Shown here: positions 42,925 to 63,405 of the stretch, one piece after another
Position numbering within the stretch: position 1 is the stretch's first letter
Layout: each line of letters opens with the position of its first letter
From: Candidatus Saccharimonadota bacterium
Lineage (GTDB): Bacteria > Patescibacteriota > Saccharimonadia > Saccharimonadales > Saccharimonadaceae
Assembly: GCA_017519305.1 (NCBI GenBank)
Contig: JAFWSN010000001.1
Location: 308,296-372,295 of the forward strand
Length of the DNA stretch: 64,000 nucleotides
Direction: 5' to 3'
Notes under the pieces: generated by a model
Told to the model about the DNA's origin: nothing
Seen by the model: only the letters and a program-made list of their open reading frames with translations
The model's database searches: none
Position numbers and translations under genes: made by a program

Positions 42925-45900
42925 TTACTTTTTAACTCCAATAATTGCTTTGCCGCAACTACGGACGATAATTACCACCACGGCGAACATCGCGCCAAGC
43001 AGTACGACGATCACTCTATCGCTCCTGCTGCCACCGGCATCATAGGTGTGCGCACCGGTGTCCGGAACCGACAAGATGACGGTTTCGTCTTGATTATTCA
43101 AATCGTGGTAGCCAAGGACCAAGTCGCCGTTTTCGTCAAAGACGTCGTCGACAATTACGATGATGAAGTCGCCAGCCGCAATCTTGCTTACATCAAAGGT
43201 GTAAGTTGCGATAAACGAGCCGCAGTCTTCTTCTGGGGTAAAGGTAGTCTTGTGTTCGACTGGTTTGCCATCGATAAGGATTGGTTCGCCAGTGTTTTTG
43301 TTCATCAGTCTACCAACAAAGGTGAACTTACGATTGGCCTTAAGGCAGTATTTAACCTCATCTTCAATTACGACTTCGCCTTTTTCGAGTTCGAGCTCTT
43401 TGCTATCTTTGCCTTTATAGGAAGCATAGGTTTCGTAACCAGCAATTACAACAGTCTGGCCCCAATCTTCAAGATCAGCGTGGGAGATGAGCTCATCGTC
43501 GCCCTCATAGACAGTTTCAAAGACCACGAATTCGCGACCAAGCATCTCGGTAGTGTCAAGTTTGAATTCTACACTTACTGTGCCACAATCAGTGTTAGAA
43601 CCAAAGGTTGCAGTTTGGGTCATCGGCTCACCGTCTTCGCCAAGTACTGGCTCTCCGGTAGCTTTGTCCATCAAGGTACCGACTAATCTATAAGTCGTAT
43701 CTTTGACGAGGCAGTATTCAACCTTATCGACAATCGTAGTTTCAGCATCAAATAAGATGTATTTATTGCCAGCCTTATCGGAAGCAGTCGTCTTGATATT
43801 AATAATCTTAACAGTCTGAGCCTCGTCATCAATATCTTCGTGAGTAATGATAAGCTTGTCATCGATTTTGACTGCTTCAAATACCACTAAGTCATGTCCG
43901 TAAAGTTCAGTAGAATCAACCGTGAATGACATCGTAGTAAAACCGCAGTTTTCATCTGGAGTAAGCTCTTTTTCGACTACTAGTAGCTCGCCGTCAGCAC
44001 CCTTTACCAACTCACCAGTTACCTTATCCATCAAGGCACCAATCAAGGTGTAGGTGCGGCCAGCTTTGAGGCAATAAGAAACCGTATCGATAATTTCCGA
44101 CTCGGTGTCCGCAATTACTAACTTGTCGCCATCAGCAGCGTCAACTGCAATAGTAGAAAGTGTAATCACCGTTACAGTCTGATCTTCATCGGTCAAATCG
44201 CTGTGATCAAGAATCTCAACGTCGTTTAAGTAGACTTTTTCAAATACGACAATATCGTGTCCGGCCAATTCGTTGGTGCTGATTTCGAACTCTAGGCTCG
44301 TCGTGCCACAATTTTGTTCTGGATTAACTTCAGTAGTCAAGACAATTGGATTGCCCTCATTGTCCACAATTAGATTGCCAGTATTCTTATCCATCAAAGT
44401 GCCTTCGATTACGAAAGTCATACCAGGCTTCAAGCAGTAGTGAATTTCATCTGTAATAGTAGCGGTATCGCCAGGGAAGAGATAGTGGTCACCGTCTTCT
44501 TTGTCAGTTGCAGTAGTCTTAACTTCAATAATAGTAACCGTTTGACCTTCATCATTAATGTCGGCGTGTTCAACTGCCAATTCATCGCGATCATCGTAGG
44601 CTCTTTCGAAGACTACCACATCATGGCCACCAAGAGCGGAAGTATCAACATCAAAGACAAGGGAAGTAGTGCCACAATTCGTGTCTGGAGTAAACGTCTT
44701 AGAAGCAGTGACCGATTCGCCCCTAGCATCCTTCACTGGTTCGCCAGTTTCTTTATCCATCAAAGTACCAACAATCGTAAACTCACGACCAGCCTTGAGA
44801 CAGTAAGAAATATCATCTTTGATTTGTGCATTTTCACCTGCAACAACCATCTTGTCGCCGTCAGCATTATCGGAAGCTGCGGTCGAAAGGTCAACAACCG
44901 TAAAGGTTTGTTCCTCATCGGCAATATCACGGTGCTTAAGCAATGATACATCACCGAATTCATCAAGATAGATATCCTCGTAAATTACAACGTCACGACC
45001 GACCATCTCGGTAGTATCAATCGTAAACTCCATTTCAACATCACCACAGTTTTCACCAACTGGCTCAATAAACTTTGAGCGCTCAATGCGGTAACCATCC
45101 GGGCTAACGAGAATGCGCCCGGTTTCAGCGTCCATCAAACGACCAACCGTATAGAAGGTCATGCCCGGCTTCAAGCAGTAATGAATAGTATCTTTGACCA
45201 CGGTGTTTTCGCCTGGCAAAACATATCTGTCGCCATCACTACTATCAGTTGCGGTTGTGCTAACCTTAACAGCCGTTACGGATTGGTCTTCGCTATTAAT
45301 ATCTTCTTCTGCGATAACTAAGTCACTGGTGCCAAAGTAAACCTTTTGATAGACGATGATGTCATGACCACCGAGACCAGTAGCGTCGAAGTCAAAGTCC
45401 ATCGTAGTTACGCCACAAGCCGTAGAAGGGGTAATAGTCTTGGTGCTGGTGACTGCTGAGCCGCCGTTCATAACCGGTTCGCCGGTTTGACGATCCATCA
45501 AGGTACCTTCAATCCTAAAGGCCTTGTTGGCACGAAGACAATAAGTAATCTCGTCTTCAACCGAAGCGTTAGGACCATCAACGATTAACTTATCATTATC
45601 AGCCTTATCATCGGCATAGGTGGACATACTGACCACCGTTACGGTCTGGTCTTCGTCAGTCAAAACATTGTGAGCAATCACTGGAGAATTTTGGTAATAG
45701 ATATTTTCATAAACCACCAAGTCGTGACCAGCAAGTTCAGAAGTGTCTATATCAAATTCCATCGTAGTCGTACCACAGTTTGTGGTCGGAGTAATGTTTG
45801 CAGATTTAGTGACCGGGCCACCATTACTCATTACGACTTGGCCAGTAGTCCTATCAAGAACAGAGCCAATAATACTATAGGTTTTACCGGCTTTAAGACA

Positions 45901-48234
45901 ATAGCTTAATGTATCGCGTACCGTCGTATTTGGACCAGCAACAATGAACTTGTTATTGTCTTCTTTGTCTACCGCGACAGTACTGAGGCTTACAACCGTT
46001 ACAGTCTGGCCTTCATCGTTCAAATTTTTATGCTCAATCGCCAAGACATTGTCGAAATATACTTCCTGGAAGGCCACAAGTTCGTGTCCTTTTAGTCCGG
46101 TAGTATTTACATTAAAGCTCATATATTCTACGCCCGTATTCGTGCTTGGCGTGATAGTCTTTGTGGCAGTAGACACCTGAGTGTTGGTGTTCTTGTCCAT
46201 CAAAATACCGTGAATCACATAGGTAAGGCCAGATTTCAAAGTATAGTTAATTTTATCCACCACCGCAACGTTGGTGCCTTCAGGAACAAACTTGTCACCA
46301 TCAGCCTGGTCGGTTGCGACAGTCGAAAGACTCAAAACCACGCAGTCGTTATACCAGTTACCAAGACTAACTACGGTATTGTCGGCATTGATCGTAAAGG
46401 TCTTGCTCGAAGTGTCGTTATTATAACAGAATTTGTTACCGAAACAGGTCATCTCGGTAATGGTGTAAGTATCGTACGGCAAAGCACCAAGGGAATTATT
46501 TGGGGTAGTATTGCCAAACCAAGTACCGTAACCAGCGTAAATATAGTGTTTTTGCTCGCCAATTACGGCGGTAAAGGTAAGACTATCATAGCCATTGGTG
46601 CGATAGGTATGCAAGTTGAAACTACTCGATGTATTAACCACACCATTCGAATCGGTCACGACGATGTGCGATTCACCAGTCGTGTTGGATCTGATCCTAA
46701 AGGCAACATTGGCCATTGGGGAATTACCATTGTTTTGGTCAATCTTTCTAAACGTCACGTCACCACGTTTGACCTGGTTAGGCTCGTCAATCGTAATAAC
46801 AGCATTATTATTTTGTGGAATAGTTACAGTTCTAACTGGAGCGGTACGATTATAGCCAGGACCAGCAACAGTTTCAGTTATTTCATAGGTACCATATGGC
46901 AAGTTGTTGAATGAAATACTACACTGACCAGCCGGAACCGTACCGGTAGTAAGCTGACCACCTACCGGGATAGTATTGCCACCATAAACCACTGGATATG
47001 TGGATCGGTTAACAATGCTAAAGGTACTGCTCGACAATGCTGCCGAACCAAGAGCAGTACAGCCACCAGTTTCTGAGTCAACCTTCCTGACGGTGATGGA
47101 GCCTTTCTTGACCGTGTCGTAGAAAACTAAGGAAGACATATCTCCTTCGTAATAAATCGTAGCCGTCTGCGGAACAGTAGCATCATAATAGGCGTTGCCG
47201 GAAGTCTCAACCACTTTATAAGTACCAATTGGTAAACCAGAGAATGAAAGTCTACCCTGCGCATCCGTATTACCAGAAGTTACTAAATCGTTGTCGTTAT
47301 AGAAGCCACCGGTATCTGGGCGATAAATCCTACCAACCGCACGTACTTCAAAATGGATGTTGGCAAAGTTACCATTACCTTGTGGATTAGTGCCAGTATT
47401 AGCATCTCTTTTTTCAATATTAATACCACCAAACTCGGCGCTTTCAATCCAGACAATATCTTGGAATTCATCCGGATCATAATTTGAAGAATCATAGCCG
47501 TCCGGATAGTCATTCTCGTCTGGATTCTCTCTATCCACACGATAAATACTGTATGATTGAGCAATTGAGTACGCATCGGTGTTGTTAGTCTTTTCCGCAC
47601 GCAACACAGCAATCATATTATCAACAAGTTGTCTATGATTCTTTAGGCCAGCATAATCGTTAGCATACAAGGCGCCAAGTATGGCATGGATATAAGCATA
47701 ACGCGTGTCCGCATTGTCAGTTAAACCTGCGTTGGCGAAATAAGTTGCCGCACCAGAATCAGTAAAAATCTTATTGTATAGCGCGTTAGCTACTGCCTGC
47801 ACCGCTGCTGGTGGGTTCACACCACCTCCGGTACCAGCAAAAATCGCCATCTTCATTAACTGATATTTTTCAGCGTTGTCGTTTAGCCTCAAAACTTGAT
47901 ATGTGCCATCAAGCGGTTTTAGGCTCGGGTTTGCACAATATGAAACATATCTAGTACTAGAGCTACTTGGGTTTGGCTGTGTCCAGAAATGATGCGTCGT
48001 GCCACGATTCGGATTGCCCTGGCTATCCCAACCTTCCATGTTTGGAGTCTCACCATAATGAATTTTATCGTCTGGGCTATAGATAATTTTGACCCATTGG
48101 CCCGTCTGCGAAATAGCAGTCGCTTCTTCGTCGACACGCTTAGTCGCAGCAAAAGCGACGAGACCGATTACCCCGATAATTAGCAGTGCAAAAAATGCTC
48201 TCCTAAAAAATCTCTTTTTTGTGTGCAAAATCAT
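42925..48234 (-). CDS. Giant wall-anchored adhesin: thioester-like domain, SpaA/Cna-B domains, nine VaFE repeats, VPDTG signal
   Basis: Surface protein of 1769 residues. In order: signal/membrane segment (about 10-30); an N-terminal domain (35-265) with YCANP (Cys100) and AAVQAVANALY (Gln146), the two short motifs that form a Cys-Gln thioester in gram-positive thioester adhesins; three Cna-B/SpaA-like domains (about 268-640); nine VaFE (Thr-Gln ester bond type) repeats of about 120 residues (about 645-1722); VPDTG (1723-1727); a membrane helix; basic end. Repeats 2-9 each hold two Cys (Y-C-L and C-G), both missing in repeat 1. A covalent host-attachment stalk is the likely role (inference). 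It has a consensus promoter and its own terminator. Confidence 0.9.
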   Translation of the reverse strand: MILHTKKRFFRRAFFALLIIGVIGLVAFAATKRVDEEATAISQTGQWVKIIYSPDDKIHYGETPNMEGWDSQGNPNRGTTHHFWTQPNPSSSSTRYVSYCANPSLKPLDGTYQVLRLNDNAEKYQLMKMAIFAGTGGGVNPPAAVQAVANALYNKIFTDSGAATYFANAGLTDNADTRYAYIHAILGALYANDYAGLKNHRQLVDNMIAVLRAEKTNNTDAYSIAQSYSIYRVDRENPDENDYPDGYDSSNYDPDEFQDIVWIESAEFGGINIEKRDANTGTNPQGNGNFANIHFEVRAVGRIYRPDTGGFYNDNDLVTSGNTDAQGRLSFSGLPIGTYKVVETSGNAYYDATVPQTATIYYEGDMSSLVFYDTVKKGSITVRKVDSETGGCTALGSAALSSSTFSIVNRSTYPVVYGGNTIPVGGQLTTGTVPAGQCSISFNNLPYGTYEITETVAGPGYNRTAPVRTVTIPQNNNAVITIDEPNQVKRGDVTFRKIDQNNGNSPMANVAFRIRSNTTGESHIVVTDSNGVVNTSSSFNLHTYRTNGYDSLTFTAVIGEQKHYIYAGYGTWFGNTTPNNSLGALPYDTYTITEMTCFGNKFCYNNDTSSKTFTINADNTVVSLGNWYNDCVVLSLSTVATDQADGDKFVPEGTNVAVVDKINYTLKSGLTYVIHGILMDKNTNTQVSTATKTITPSTNTGVEYMSFNVNTTGLKGHELVAFQEVYFDNVLAIEHKNLNDEGQTVTVVSLSTVAVDKEDNNKFIVAGPNTTVRDTLSYCLKAGKTYSIIGSVLDRTTGQVVMSNGGPVTKSANITPTTNCGTTTMEFDIDTSELAGHDLVVYENIYYQNSPVIAHNVLTDEDQTVTVVSMSTYADDKADNDKLIVDGPNASVEDEITYCLRANKAFRIEGTLMDRQTGEPVMNGGSAVTSTKTITPSTACGVTTMDFDFDATGLGGHDIIVYQKVYFGTSDLVIAEEDINSEDQSVTAVKVSTTATDSSDGDRYVLPGENTVVKDTIHYCLKPGMTFYTVGRLMDAETGRILVSPDGYRIERSKFIEPVGENCGDVEMEFTIDTTEMVGRDVVIYEDIYLDEFGDVSLLKHRDIADEEQTFTVVDLSTAASDNADGDKMVVAGENAQIKDDISYCLKAGREFTIVGTLMDKETGEPVKDARGESVTASKTFTPDTNCGTTSLVFDVDTSALGGHDVVVFERAYDDRDELAVEHADINDEGQTVTIIEVKTTATDKEDGDHYLFPGDTATITDEIHYCLKPGMTFVIEGTLMDKNTGNLIVDNEGNPIVLTTEVNPEQNCGTTSLEFEISTNELAGHDIVVFEKVYLNDVEILDHSDLTDEDQTVTVITLSTIAVDAADGDKLVIADTESEIIDTVSYCLKAGRTYTLIGALMDKVTGELVKGADGELLVVEKELTPDENCGFTTMSFTVDSTELYGHDLVVFEAVKIDDKLIITHEDIDDEAQTVKIINIKTTASDKAGNKYILFDAETTIVDKVEYCLVKDTTYRLVGTLMDKATGEPVLGEDGEPMTQTATFGSNTDCGTVSVEFKLDTTEMLGREFVVFETVYEGDDELISHADLEDWGQTVVIAGYETYASYKGKDSKELELEKGEVVIEDEVKYCLKANRKFTFVGRLMNKNTGEPILIDGKPVEHKTTFTPEEDCGSFIATYTFDVSKIAAGDFIIVIVDDVFDENGDLVLGYHDLNNQDETVILSVPDTGAHTYDAGGSRSDRVIVVLLGAMFAVVVIIVRSCGKAIIGVKK
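43069..46340 (-). repeat. Nine tandem VaFE-domain coding repeats (about 360 bases each)
   Basis: Each unit starts with a Thr-rich strand (for example STVATD), contains a LMDKxTGE-type loop and GHDxVVFE, and ends in DEGQTV or a variant. They are diverged at DNA level, so not recent copies. Repeats 1 and 3 have Gln for the VaFE Glu; repeat 9 lacks both that Glu and the usual Gln. Confidence 0.88.
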
Positions 48235-52120: not shown

Positions 52121-52132
52121 TTTAAGAGAAAA

Positions 52133-52210
52133 ACATTAAAAGATGCCCTCCGAGGACCATAAGCTCGGCCGAACGGCCTTGAGTGTGTCCGAGGAGGGCA
52201 CTTTTAATGT
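52133..52210. ncRNA. Structured hairpin element, copy 1 (downstream of rpsJ)
   Basis: Long stem ACATTAAAAG..TGCCCTCC pairing with GGAGGGCA-CTTTTAATGT, a tandem GA/GA internal loop, GGAC/GTCC, then a 29-base apical part (52158-52186): CATAA, CTC/GAG, a GGCC/GGCC hairpin and TGT. The apical part matches that of the element at 59608-59679 although the outer stems differ in sequence. It ends nine bases before the next -10 box. Likely an RNA element or structured terminator; strand not certain. Confidence 0.65.
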
Positions 52211-52218
52211 TTATATGT

Positions 52219-52224
52219 TATAAT
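52219..52224 (+). promoter_or_regulatory. Leaderless-type -10 box of the Mur ligase-like gene
   Basis: TGT-TATAAT ends six bases before the ATG at 52231. Confidence 0.6.
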
Positions 52225-52230
52225 AGATAT

Positions 52231-53505
52231 ATGATATTCGTATCAAAATTCAAGAAGCGTTTTTATTTTACTGCCGCGAATTACTTCAAACACTTTGCTA
52301 ATCGCTCCCTAAAACGCTGGAAACCACGCATTATCGCTATTACCGGTTCGGCAGGTAAAACCACCATGCTCAACCTCATGGAACTTCAGATGGCCGACAA
52401 GGCCAACTTCTCCCACGACGCCAACTCGGCCTTCGGTATTGCTTTTGACATCTTAGGAATGAAAGGCGTCAAAGGCTCTAAACTCCACTGGATTCGTCTC
52501 TTTATTGAGGCCCCATTCCGCTCGCTATTCTATACGCACAAAAAACCATTCTATGTAGTCGAAATCGATGGCGAACGCCCACACGAAACCGAATTCCTCG
52601 CTACCTGGCTCAAGCCGGAAGTCACAATTTGGGTTTCGCTCGGCCTCTCACACGCCGCCAAATTTGAAAACGTTGTTAAATCAGGCGAGTTCGACTCTCT
52701 CGAAGAAGCTATCGCCAACGAGTTTGCCAAGCTTCCAGAAAATACCACCAAATTAGTTTATATCGATGCCAACGACCAACACATGAAGGATGCAGTTAAA
52801 GACATCAAAGCCAAGGTTGTCGCCATCAAGAAATCTGAGCTCAAAAAATATGTCGTCTACCCACAGTACACCGATTTTACCTATGGCAAAACCACTTTCC
52901 ACTTTAGTCACCCAGAGGTCCGCAATCTAGCCTTCCATCTCTTGGTTCTGCAAGACTTGATGAAATATCTCAAGCTCCCATTCAATCCAGATTTTTCAAA
53001 CGTCAAAGTACCGCCTAGCCGTAGTTCATATTTTGAGGGAATCAAAGGTATTGGCATTATAGATAGCAGCTACAACGCTCATCTCATTTCGATGACCTCG
53101 TTCCTCGAAATGGCCCGCCTCATGCACACCGATCATAAATGGCTAGTTATCGGTGATATTATCGACCAAGGTTCAATCGAAAAAGAAGAGCACGAAAAGC
53201 TCGCCAATCTCATCGCTGACGTCGAACCAGAAAACATTATTTTGGTCGGTGAACGCACCAAAAAATACACCGCGCCAAAGCTCAAAGAGCTCGGTTTCTC
53301 CGCTCACACTACCACCGATCCGCACCGCGCACTCGAATATATTGAAAAACATATCACCGGCAAAGAAACCCTCTTCTTTAAGGGTAGCCAATACCTTGAA
53401 TGGATTATTGAAAAACTACTCAAGAACCCAGAGGATGCCGACAAACTTTGTCGCCGTGAACCAGCCGCCGTTAAACGCCGCAAAAAACGAGGCCTAGATT
53501 CATGA
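52231..53505 (+). CDS. Mur ligase-like protein (MurF-related)
   Basis: ATP-dependent amino-acid or peptide ligase of the Mur family: basic start, P-loop ITGSAGKTTM (37-46), the central domain with VVEIDGERPHE (about 110-120) and GLSHAAKFENV, an ALD-type C-terminal domain with RSSYFEGIKGIGIIDSSYNAH (split about 268-288) and GDIIDQGS. At 424 residues it lacks most of the usual N-terminal UDP-binding domain. With the FemAB-like genes downstream it may add a residue to the stem or cross-bridge (inference). ATG 52231 fits the -10 box; longer starts would run into the hairpin. Overlaps the hydrolase gene by 4 bases. Confidence 0.85.
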   Translation: MIFVSKFKKRFYFTAANYFKHFANRSLKRWKPRIIAITGSAGKTTMLNLMELQMADKANFSHDANSAFGIAFDILGMKGVKGSKLHWIRLFIEAPFRSLFYTHKKPFYVVEIDGERPHETEFLATWLKPEVTIWVSLGLSHAAKFENVVKSGEFDSLEEAIANEFAKLPENTTKLVYIDANDQHMKDAVKDIKAKVVAIKKSELKKYVVYPQYTDFTYGKTTFHFSHPEVRNLAFHLLVLQDLMKYLKLPFNPDFSNVKVPPSRSSYFEGIKGIGIIDSSYNAHLISMTSFLEMARLMHTDHKWLVIGDIIDQGSIEKEEHEKLANLIADVEPENIILVGERTKKYTAPKLKELGFSAHTTTDPHRALEYIEKHITGKETLFFKGSQYLEWIIEKLLKNPEDADKLCRREPAAVKRRKKRGLDS

Positions 53506-59437: not shown

Positions 59438-59466
59438 TTGACAACCAAAAATGCTTATGTTAATTT
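59438..59466 (+). promoter_or_regulatory. Promoter of the putative RNA upstream of dnaE
   Basis: TTGACA, 17-base spacer with TGCTTATG, TAATTT. No coding frame follows, so it should drive an untranslated RNA. Confidence 0.6.
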
Positions 59467-59472
59467 GAAATT

Positions 59473-59602
59473 AGAGTGTAAGGTTATGCGGCTCCAAAAC
59501 AAACATAACAAAGAGGGTCATATAAGTACTACAGCGAAAATAGTTTGAGGAATTAGTTAATCCTAAACATTTTGCGCTCTAAAACTTAGACCCTTTTTGT
59601 TA
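59473..59602 (+). ncRNA. Putative structured non-coding RNA upstream of dnaE
   Basis: Starts about seven bases after the promoter. Possible pairings: AGAGTG (59473-59478) with CGCTCT (59575-59580); GTTATG (59483-59488) with CATAAC (59504-59509); AACAAAGAGGGTC (59507-59519) with GACCCTTTTTGTT (59589-59601), one mismatch; and a small AGGATT/AATCCT-type hairpin (59548-59563). The second and third overlap and are mutually exclusive, as in switching RNAs. No ORF. Family not recognised; it does not match the SRP RNA or tmRNA signatures I know. Confidence 0.5.
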
Positions 59603-59607
59603 TATTG

Positions 59608-59679
59608 CCGAATGGTCTTTTGCGGACCATAAAGACTTGGCCAGAGCGGCCCGGAGCGTGTCCGCAAAAGACTATTCGG
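59608..59679. ncRNA. Structured hairpin element, copy 2 (upstream of dnaE)
   Basis: 20-bp stem (59608-59627 with 59660-59679) with a single G-T wobble, topped by a 32-base apical part: CATAA, CTT/GAG, GGCC/GGCC hairpin and CGT. Matches copy 1 at 52133-52210 in the apical part only; its stem has a different sequence that still pairs. It ends three bases before the dnaE -10 box. Confidence 0.65.
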
Positions 59680-59682
59680 TGA

Positions 59683-59688
59683 TATAAT
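59683..59688 (+). promoter_or_regulatory. Leaderless-type -10 box of dnaE
   Basis: TGA-TATAAT ends six bases before the ATG at 59695. Confidence 0.6.
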
Positions 59689-59694
59689 ATATAT

Positions 59695-62600
59695 ATGTCT
59701 AAAGGAGTTAAGTTAAAGCCAAGTGATTTTGTGCATCTGCACAACCACACGCATTACTCTCTTCTTGATGGTTTGACTAAAATCCCAGAGCTCGTCGATT
59801 ATGTTAAAGAGCAGGGAATGGAAGCCGTTGCTGTTACCGACCACGGCACTATGAGTGGTCTCGTTGAATTATATAAATGCTGCAATGATGCTGGCATTAA
59901 GCCAATCCTTGGTCTCGAATCCTATGTTGCTGCCCGCAAAATGACCGACAAAGACCCAGCTCACGATAAACAGCGCTTCCATATTACTTTGCTCGCCATG
60001 AACAACCAGGGTTTCGAAAACCTTTGCCGCATCATGTCCAACTCCGAAATCTACGGCAAATACTACAAACCGCGCACCGACCACGAAGAGCTTGAGAAAT
60101 ATAATGAAGGTATTATTTGTCTTTCTGGTTGTATGGGCTCCGAAATTTCTGAAGCCATCCGCGCCGACGACGACAAGCGCGCCTTAGAGCTCATTGATTG
60201 GTACCGCAACGTTTTCAAAGATCGTTTCTATCTTGAAATGCAAGATCACGGCCATCCAAAATCTTCTACCCATTCCGCCGAACAAAAGAAGGTTAATGAT
60301 TGGCTGATGGCTCACGCCGAAGAATTAGGACTTCCTCTTGTTGTCACTTGCGATGCCCACTATTTGAAGCATGAAGATCAAGACGCCCACGAAGTTCTGC
60401 TTTGTGTAGGTACCGCCGCTAATCTTTCCGATCAAAACCGCATGACCTTAAAAGACTTCGATCTTCACGTTATTTCTGCCGACGAAATTATTGAACACTG
60501 GCAAGATACCTGTCCAGAAGCCGTATTAAACAGCAGGCGCATCGCCGACCGTTGCAATGTAGATTTGCAACTTGGTCGCATTTTGATTCCAAAATTCCCA
60601 GTGCCAAAAGGCGAAGATGAAAAATCATACCTTGATAAGCTAGTCTTTCGCGGCCTTGTTTTTCGCTACTGTGGCAAAACCAAAGAGGAAACCGAGAAGC
60701 TCGATATTCCGGCCTGCCGCAAACTACTCGAAACCGCTGATAAAGACCGCGGCGAAACCACTAAGATTCTCCCACGCATCGATTACGAGCTTTCCGTGGT
60801 TGATAAAATGGGCTACAACGGCTATTTCTTGATCGTCCAAGACTTTATTATGTGGGGCAAGAACCAAGGAATCGTTTACGGACCAGGTCGTGGCTCCGCT
60901 GCTGGTTCGCTTCTAGCTTACGCCCTCCGTATTACCGAGCTTGACCCACTTAAATACGACTTGCTCTTTGAGCGTTTCCTTAATCCAGACCGTATCTCCA
61001 TGCCAGATATCGATACCGACATTCAGGATACTCGCCGCGACGAGGTTATTGAATACTGTACCGGCAAATACGGCGAAGCTCGTGTGTCAAACATCGCTAC
61101 CTTTGGTAAAATGATGGCCAAAAACGCCGTGCGCGACGTTGCTCGCGTGCTCGAAGTACCATATGCCGAAGCTGACCGCCTCGCCAAAATGGTGCCAGAT
61201 CCAGTAATGGGCCACCACGTTCATCTTGCCGACGCCATTAAAGAAGTCCCGGACCTCAAAGCCGAATACGAATCTAATCCAATTTCTAAAGAAGTAATCG
61301 ACTTTGCCTCACGCCTTGAAGGCACCATCAGAAACCACGGCGTACACGCTTGTGGCGTCGTGATTGCGCCAGACGATTTGGTTAAATTCCTTCCGCTCGA
61401 AGTTTCCGCCAAAGGCCCAATCGCCGCCCAATTTCCAATGGGTACCGTCGAAGAGCTTGGCCTTCTTAAAATGGACTTTCTTGGGTTGTCTAACCTTTCC
61501 GTGATTAACAATGCCTTGCGCATGATTCGCAAAGTCTACCACAACGACATCGATATGTATTCGGTGCCACTAGACGACGAAGAAACCTACAAGCTACTTC
61601 AGCGCGCAGATACCACTGGTGTATTTCAGCTTGAATCTGCCGGCATGAAACGCTATCTCAAAGATCTTAAAGCCTCGTCTTTCGAAGACATCATCGCTAT
61701 GGTGGCGCTTTATCGTCCAGGTCCAATGCAGTTTATCGACTCCTTCATTCGTCGTAAACACGGGGAAGAGCCAATCACTTATCTCCATCCAGGCCTCGAA
61801 AATTCACTCAAGAGTACCTATGGCATTATGATCTACCAGGAGCAATTCATGCAGATCTCCAAGGAGTGGTGTGGCTTTACTGGCGGCCAAGCAGATACTT
61901 TGCGTAAAGCTGTGGGTAAAAAGAAAATCGACCTCATGAAGAAGGTTAAACCACAGTTTATTGAAGGCGCCGTCAAAATCGGTGGCGCTACCGAAGAAAT
62001 TGCCGAAACCTTCTGGAGCCAGCTTCTCGACTTCGCTAACTATTGTTTCAACAAGTCCCACGCCGCATGTTACGCACTCGTGGCTTATTGGACCGCTTAC
62101 TTAAAAGCTCATTATCCGGACGCTTTCATGGCTGCACTTATGACCGCCGACATGCGCTGGACCGACCGTCTCGCCATTGAAATTGCTGAAAGCAAACGTA
62201 TTGGCCTCAAAGTCCTTGGGCCAGATATTAACGAGTCCTACGGCGATTTCGGTATCGTAGGCGGTAAGAAAACTATCCGCTTCGGCCTTTCTGGCGTCAA
62301 AAACATGGGTAAATCACTCATTGAAGATATCGTTATCCCAGAACGCGACAAAAACGGTCCATTCAAATCAGTCTTCGACTTCGCTAAACGCGTAGATTCT
62401 ACTAAATTTAATAAAAAATCTTGGGAAGCCGCCATCAAAACCGGAGCCTTCGATCGCTTTGGTTATTCACGTTCCGATTTGTTATTCAACCTCGAAAGTA
62501 TCCAGGCCTACGGTGCTAAAGTCCAAAAAGATGTCGGCTCCGGCCAAACCGATTTGTTCGGCGCAATGGGCGACGCTGGCGCCATCCCGGAACCAGAAAT

Positions 62601-63405
62601 CAAACCGGCTCCAACTCAGTATTCCGACAAGGAACAGCTCCTTTGGGAACGTGATTTGATGGGTCTTTATTTGTCCGCTCATCCACTTGATAAATACGAT
62701 TTGTATTTCGAAGAACAAACTCATCCGTTCTCCTGCGTTTCAGCTGAAAACAACGACAAAACCATCACTATCGGCGGCATTATTACCAACGTCCGTACTA
62801 TTCTTACTAAATCTAATACCAAGATGGCCTTCGTTAAAATCGAAAACAAGACCGGTGAAACCGAAGCTGTCGTCTTCCCGTCGGTCTTTGAATCATGCGG
62901 TGCTAAACTCGTTATCGACAACGTCGTTCGCATCTCCGGCCGCGTTAATGCTACCGACAAAGATGGCCGTCCAACTTCCGAAGTCAAAGTTCTTGCCGAA
63001 ACCGTAGAATTAATTTCGGATGAGCTTCTCGAAAACTATAAAGCTACCGGCGAAAAACTCGCTGCACCAATCGCCGCGCCAAAAAAGAAACGCGCCTATT
63101 CTAAAACTTCCGCCGAACGCGTTGCGCCAGTCATAGAAGAAGAGCCGCCAAAAATCACTACACCACCGAAAGACCCACGCAAAGAACGCCTTTTCATTCT
63201 TATCGAAAACTCCGATGATACCGACACTCTAACCGCGATTCGTCGTCTCTGCGATTTGAATCTTGGTTGTCAAGAAGTTATCTTAGTATTGAAAGATGGG
63301 GAAGAAAAGAAACCACTACGCATGCCGTTCCGCGTTGATGCTTCCGACGAATTGCTTACCAAACTCAAAGATCTCGTCGGGGAAGCAAACGTCAAAGTCT
63401 CCTAA
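59695..63405 (+). CDS. dnaE: DNA polymerase III subunit alpha
   Basis: Replicative polymerase, 1236 residues. Seen: N-terminal PHP domain with FVHLHNHTHYSLLDG (12-26) and VTDHGTMSG; the polymerase palm with GPGRGSAAGSLLAYAL (398-413) and PDIDTDIQD (439-447), giving two catalytic Asp, the third being in the DFLGLSNL-to-PGP region; fingers with RPGPMQFIDSFIRRKHG; a tandem HhH region; and an OB-fold (about 1020-1095, GGIITNVRTILTKSNTKMAFV). A basic linker and small C-terminal domain (about 1120-1236) follow. The PHP metal His/Asp residues appear largely kept, so proofreading by PHP is possible. Confidence 0.97.
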   Translation: MSKGVKLKPSDFVHLHNHTHYSLLDGLTKIPELVDYVKEQGMEAVAVTDHGTMSGLVELYKCCNDAGIKPILGLESYVAARKMTDKDPAHDKQRFHITLLAMNNQGFENLCRIMSNSEIYGKYYKPRTDHEELEKYNEGIICLSGCMGSEISEAIRADDDKRALELIDWYRNVFKDRFYLEMQDHGHPKSSTHSAEQKKVNDWLMAHAEELGLPLVVTCDAHYLKHEDQDAHEVLLCVGTAANLSDQNRMTLKDFDLHVISADEIIEHWQDTCPEAVLNSRRIADRCNVDLQLGRILIPKFPVPKGEDEKSYLDKLVFRGLVFRYCGKTKEETEKLDIPACRKLLETADKDRGETTKILPRIDYELSVVDKMGYNGYFLIVQDFIMWGKNQGIVYGPGRGSAAGSLLAYALRITELDPLKYDLLFERFLNPDRISMPDIDTDIQDTRRDEVIEYCTGKYGEARVSNIATFGKMMAKNAVRDVARVLEVPYAEADRLAKMVPDPVMGHHVHLADAIKEVPDLKAEYESNPISKEVIDFASRLEGTIRNHGVHACGVVIAPDDLVKFLPLEVSAKGPIAAQFPMGTVEELGLLKMDFLGLSNLSVINNALRMIRKVYHNDIDMYSVPLDDEETYKLLQRADTTGVFQLESAGMKRYLKDLKASSFEDIIAMVALYRPGPMQFIDSFIRRKHGEEPITYLHPGLENSLKSTYGIMIYQEQFMQISKEWCGFTGGQADTLRKAVGKKKIDLMKKVKPQFIEGAVKIGGATEEIAETFWSQLLDFANYCFNKSHAACYALVAYWTAYLKAHYPDAFMAALMTADMRWTDRLAIEIAESKRIGLKVLGPDINESYGDFGIVGGKKTIRFGLSGVKNMGKSLIEDIVIPERDKNGPFKSVFDFAKRVDSTKFNKKSWEAAIKTGAFDRFGYSRSDLLFNLESIQAYGAKVQKDVGSGQTDLFGAMGDAGAIPEPEIKPAPTQYSDKEQLLWERDLMGLYLSAHPLDKYDLYFEEQTHPFSCVSAENNDKTITIGGIITNVRTILTKSNTKMAFVKIENKTGETEAVVFPSVFESCGAKLVIDNVVRISGRVNATDKDGRPTSEVKVLAETVELISDELLENYKATGEKLAAPIAAPKKKRAYSKTSAERVAPVIEEEPPKITTPPKDPRKERLFILIENSDDTDTLTAIRRLCDLNLGCQEVILVLKDGEEKKPLRMPFRVDASDELLTKLKDLVGEANVKVS

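Follow-up and report, generated by a model that had tools for sequence, protein, structure and literature searches.

Integron attC sites have variable arms that stay complementary, and they are presumed to function as folded single strands. The RPEs of Rickettsia are short palindromes found both in frame in conserved genes and in intergenic DNA, with no known dedicated transposase (PMC3733652). CGTC-tagged repeats carry a terminal CGTC tag next to an 8-9 bp stem with a loop of 4-5 nt (PMC3733652). Template switching between inverted repeats homogenises their arms and inverts their spacers (PMC8604942), and it has been proposed to underlie both the creation and the maintenance of RNA hairpins (PMC8794818).

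We analysed a stretch of 64,000 nucleotides (hereafter the window) from the genome of a Candidatus Saccharimonadota bacterium. It contains two hairpins of a family with elements of about 75-82 nt, each consisting of a fixed asymmetric head of 37-40 nt and a variable pair of arms of about 20 bp. Each hairpin is probably a copy of a mobile DNA element, palindromic and non-coding, rather than a regulatory RNA of the gene that follows it. The element behaves like RPEs and REPs, yet is assigned to neither, because it has no CGTC end tag and no RAYT partner, and its GTAG-like tag is internal. As for RPEs, palindromic inserts were found that keep the frame of conserved but mutually unrelated protein genes, and genes for DNA synthesis and repair are among the hosts of both; no relation in sequence was apparent, and the CGTC tag of RPE-4 and RPE-6 (PMC3733652) is not present at the end of the head. 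The element differs from RPEs and CGTC-tagged repeats in that the head alone is conserved and contains a tertiary-type pair, the arms differing from site to site; the survey of those repeats (PMC3733652) mentions neither Patescibacteria nor Bifidobacterium, the two groups in which the element was found. Its site-specific ends and stems of more than 20 bp also separate it from the CGTC-tagged repeats. It resembles GTAG REP/REPIN sequences in the paired copies in Bifidobacterium and the strand-biased placement, and perhaps in its GTAG-like tag beside a bulged hairpin, but this tag lies inside a long outer stem, it has no RAYT association and in-frame insertion is common. The variable complementary arms, presumed to act in folded single-stranded DNA, would be analogous to those of attC sites, but here it is the head that is conserved and not the arms, and no integron gene-cassette structure was seen. 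Arm homogenisation and spacer inversion are shared with inverted repeats that evolved by template switching (PMC8604942, PMC8794818), which are host sequences, whereas the spacer is here a dispersed conserved unit.

The features of the two loci are as follows.

52131..52212, + strand: copy 1 (type A), whole hairpin, 5' of the Mur-ligase-like gene
52152..52153, + strand: 5' half of the tandem GA/GA internal loop of copy 1 (partner 52191-52192)
52154..52190, + strand: conserved head of copy 1, 37 nt
52219..52224, + strand: TATAAT -10-like box adjoining copy 1, recognised from sequence
52231..53505, + strand: Mur-ligase-like gene, a neighbour outside the element (Pfam Mur_ligase_C 1.4e-07, murF subfamily 1.6e-26)
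59601..59604, + strand: TATA to the left of the copy 2 insert, repeated at 59683-59686 (target-site duplication or microhomology)
59605..59682, + strand: copy 2 (type B), inserted unit of 78 nt 5' of dnaE, with bounds taken from the empty site of a relative (G063)
59624..59663, + strand: conserved head of copy 2, type B, 40 nt
59683..59688, + strand: TATAAT -10 box of dnaE, native, as it is also present in the empty site
59695..63405, + strand: dnaE, a neighbour outside the element

The predicted folds of copy 1 (-48.1 kcal/mol) and of the region of copy 2 (59600-59687; -49.9 kcal/mol) were far more stable than those of shuffled sequences (z -9.0 and -9.1, respectively). An earlier note on this DNA, made from the sequence alone, had placed two hairpins here with a shared apex and with outer arms unlike in sequence yet complementary, and had seen a tandem GA/GA internal loop in one of them. 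All of this was borne out: the apex corresponds to the two heads listed above, the complementarity of the arms extends to strong covariation over 52 copies, and the tandem loop is that of copy 1, its AG/GA class occurring in 35 of 118 copies. The head of copy 1 reads GGACC ATAA GCTC GGCC GAAC GGCC TT GAG TGT GTCC, in which the tertiary-type pair that covaries joins the loop base A to the T of TGT. Four copies are present in the genome from which the window was taken, at ruvB, the Mur-ligase-like gene, dnaE and priA, and all four are followed directly on the 3' side by a TATAAT box of -10 type and then a leaderless ATG (at 52231 for the Mur-ligase-like gene and 59695 for dnaE), in agreement with the note's description of leaderless-type promoters. 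Its further statement that the hairpins follow a transcription unit held for some copies, but not for those at ruvB and priA, which lie between divergent genes. The ruvB copy adjoins CIRCE-like sequences of the divergent dnaK.

The note had regarded the family as undescribed and had suggested a covariance-model search. A model (R1) was built from 52 copies, and copy 1 matched it with 80.8 bits (E 3.1e-19). No curated Rfam family was found above the gathering threshold for the hairpins (in the window, only a tRNA passed), the matches below threshold being generic microRNA or snoRNA hairpins, and no matching element in Saccharibacteria or Bifidobacterium was found in the open-access literature. 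The search yielded many further copies with covariation, and the note's view of an undescribed family was supported. R1 matches were obtained in 89 of the 147 sampled genomes of the same Saccharibacteria genus, with up to 26 copies per genome; this maximum was reached in two genomes (G045 and G141), which should be useful for the study of recent insertions. A pattern search matched 46 of these 147 genomes, and a reversed control pattern gave a single match. Across the phylum, 5/380 genomes had matches, including two single matches in other families. R1 also matched 70 of 111 Bifidobacterium genomes, and four Bifidobacterium genomes scanned with laxer filters each had 17-61 copies. A scan of GTDB contigs identified at least 119 stretches; the matches listed were from Saccharibacteria MAGs and Bifidobacterium, and there may be further carriers.

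Three 37-nt head sequences are identical between Saccharibacteria and Bifidobacterium, and this identity points to a trace of DNA exchange between phyla. Exact head patterns had no match in 2.9 million viral contigs. A phage origin was rejected: none of the folds of 36 viral-contig stretches matched by a loose pattern resembled that of the element, and 13 matches in Klebsiella phages were only 22 nt long, at the level of chance. A full copy was found near the end of MT837054, an unannotated human-faecal "phage" contig that may be a bacterial fragment. The plasmids and E. coli sequences searched contained no copies. A related head, GACTTGGCCAAGCGGCCCGGAGCGGYGCC, was present in two other Patescibacteria families (L197, positions 1480-1580, where a partial second head adjoins it, and L196), so the family may extend beyond one genus. 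In the Bifidobacterium genomes G523-G526, copies were often paired 50-130 nt apart, always minus-then-plus, and these pairs often combined one type A and one type B copy, like REP dimers.

The head is nearly invariant and has a GGAC/GTCC closing stem, an RTAR tag and a stem of CTY/GAG and GGCC/GGCC with a 2-nt bulge; a loop base pairs with the 3' internal loop. These two bases covary as A-U and G-C (33 and 19 of the 52 copies, respectively), indicating a compact tertiary fold. At this pair (R20-Y31), type A copies had A-T (93), G-C (33) or A-C (2), and G-C was present in all 15 type B/C copies. In the outer helix, both sides vary at 20 of 24 pairs. The 52 copies contained 428 cells changed on both sides, against a mean of 150 after shuffling, a value reached in none of 500 shuffles, and a shift of the pairing register by 1-3 columns abolished the signal. 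Even perfect covariation of a hairpin need not mean a functional RNA, nor does it prove that an RNA is under selection, since inverted repeats can gain and retain the same signal through template switching; the compensatory changes could also result from selection on structure. G.T mismatches outnumbered A.C mismatches in the arms (95 vs 39, p 1e-6), and in 90/118 copies the DNA of the hairpin strand was predicted to fold more stably than that of the complementary strand, which together argue that the given strand is the folding strand. The excess was also observed in the antisense in-gene copies of Saccharibacteria (36 G.T vs 8 A.C), opposite to the expectation for folding of the mRNA, and thus favours the hairpin strand over the mRNA, although the small class of sense in-gene copies ran against the overall trend (5 G.T to 10 A.C).

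Both filled and empty states of orthologous sites, by which a mobile element is recognised, were found. In the closest relative identified (G063), near-identical DNA at the dnaE promoter lacks the element (L260 vs L261). The insert is a clean 78 nt (59605-59682) with TATA on each side, and both the -10 box and the ATG are kept. The TATA repeats are palindromic, so microhomology may account for them, and a target-site duplication can be resolved at this one site only. Among 60 dnaE and ruvB loci from relatives and from the genome itself, R1 matches were confined to this genome's own two loci. The commonest length differences between filled and empty orthologs, in the range of 60-100 nt, were 78 (nine cases), 69 (five), 81 (four) and 66 (four), all multiples of three; apart from dnaE, the identity between filled and empty sequences was 70-82%, which leaves the precise borders uncertain. 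Open-frame calling placed 72 of 131 copies within frames (52 antisense and 20 sense), a count that includes some probably spurious frames in GC-rich Bifidobacterium. More than half of the Saccharibacteria copies lie within genes, mostly antisense, and the hairpin strand is therefore usually not the mRNA strand. The translated head was recognised in conserved proteins as EDHKLGRTASSVS (sense) and as GHTQGRSAKPMV or SDTLKAVRPSLWS (antisense), and ten in-frame hosts were confirmed with NCBIfam: QueA, TypA, GyrA, ValRS, AlaRS, GatB, PcrA, LigA, PolA and LysRS. Through such insertions, a palindromic family alters essential proteins of gut Saccharibacteria, which are ultra-small epibionts. No transposition within a strain was seen.

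Copies are strongly oriented along the chromosome. In Saccharibacteria, 81 of 91 copies (64 of 72 in a first count), including 38/38 antisense in-gene copies, lie on the negative-GC-skew strand, counts that contain related copies and therefore do not represent independent events. Neighbouring copies on one contig had the same orientation in 28 cases and the opposite orientation in five. In three orthologous pairs (L002/L185, L057/L178 and L080/L115), the head is inverted between retained arms, and a head flip was also found in one further Bifidobacterium cluster. The positive-skew member was the minority state in each of the three pairs, so flips after insertion plausibly explain many of the exceptions in orientation. 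Arms can correspond in part to the flanking DNA: in a filled copy of G063 (L230), the left arm, ATATCGCTAAAA, matches in inverted form the native flank to the right of the empty site (L320). The formation of arms de novo from a single target arm was rejected as the sole source, as the insert contains both arms. Template switching would account jointly for the covariation, the flips and the flank-matched arms.

The placement of new copies in one orientation relative to replication suggests that insertion takes place at the replication fork, with the unit in the form of a folded single strand of DNA. Copies would survive where they land between genes or, in frame, in protein loops that tolerate them, polymerase template switching between the arms during replication would keep them complementary, acquire flank sequence and flip heads, and the head would be recognised by a putative mobilising enzyme. 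No such enzyme was found; genes for Y1 transposases are rare in carriers and none adjoined a copy. That these features define a new class of mobile DNA, in which a folded strand enters the fork, stems derive from the target, essential genes receive in-frame insertions and an unrecognised mobiliser carries the element between Saccharibacteria and Bifidobacterium, perhaps where epibiont and host touch, is a tentative proposal that we hold to be somewhat doubtful. Given the empty sites, the flips and the bias in strand, the mechanism is open to direct testing in bifidobacteria in culture.

One alternative, a REP/REPIN family whose RAYT-type (Y1) transposase has since been lost or acts in trans, seems improbable. 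The RTAR tag would then correspond to GTAG, and the REP hairpin would be the inner GCTTGGCC..GGCCTTGAG. The most frequent tag of the Bifidobacterium copies is GTAG (34/45 of type A), ATAA or GTAA being present in most Saccharibacteria copies; the close divergent pairs of Bifidobacterium (23 in a by-eye count) were all minus-then-plus, as in REP dimers, and orientation-biased insertion of a single strand is compatible with a Y1 enzyme. However, Y1 transposases were detected in only 5/147 Saccharibacteria and 6/111 Bifidobacterium genomes, with no R1 copy beside any Y1 gene checked, the tag is internal to the palindrome rather than at its end, and the arms are at least 20 bp long, against 5-13 bp for REP stems (PMC3733652). 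The orientation bias relative to GC skew would also be expected of an orientation-coded chromosomal site for replication or segregation, such as KOPS or Chi, but a copy number of 0-26 within one genus and of just four in the present genome, the insertion of copies into proteins and the flipping of heads leave this reading with next to no plausibility.

The earlier note had favoured a new promoter-tied class of regulatory RNA. A cis-regulatory or small-RNA class, in which a hairpin RNA or a cruciform by the -10 box controls ruvB, priA and dnaE, would fit the position of all four copies of this genome before a -10 box and the role of three of the four genes in replication or repair. In the wider collection, TATAAT lies just 3' of 11 of the 36 intergenic copies and on the other side of 8/36, against 0-1/36 in control windows; the promoter location described in the note thus holds for a subset, and many copies are inside genes. 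Against regulation, the dnaE and ruvB copies were unique to this genome among the orthologs examined, copies elsewhere occur in both orientations within many unrelated genes, those in genes being mostly antisense, and a hairpin upstream of the presumed start site would be absent from the downstream mRNA. Loss of pairing at orthologous loci, set beforehand as the test, was observed at dnaE and ruvB and refutes the regulatory reading there; for the family as a whole, we consider that reading very unlikely. The promoter position of the subset is better read as a hot spot of insertion or tolerance, and at both sites of the window the mobile element is a passenger beside an intact -10 box.

Two further features of the window were recorded. 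Positions 59465-59602 form a conserved non-coding stretch with a strong fold (z -4.9), about 90% identical in the relative G063 and bounded by a TTGACA/TATGTT-like promoter and a terminator-like end (GGGTC...GACCCTTTTT). It had no Rfam match above threshold and may be a small RNA. On the minus strand, positions 42925-48234 encode a secreted-looking protein of 1769 amino acids with many similar repeats; its N terminus is signal-like, its C-terminal part has a hydrophobic stretch, and it looks like a surface adhesin.
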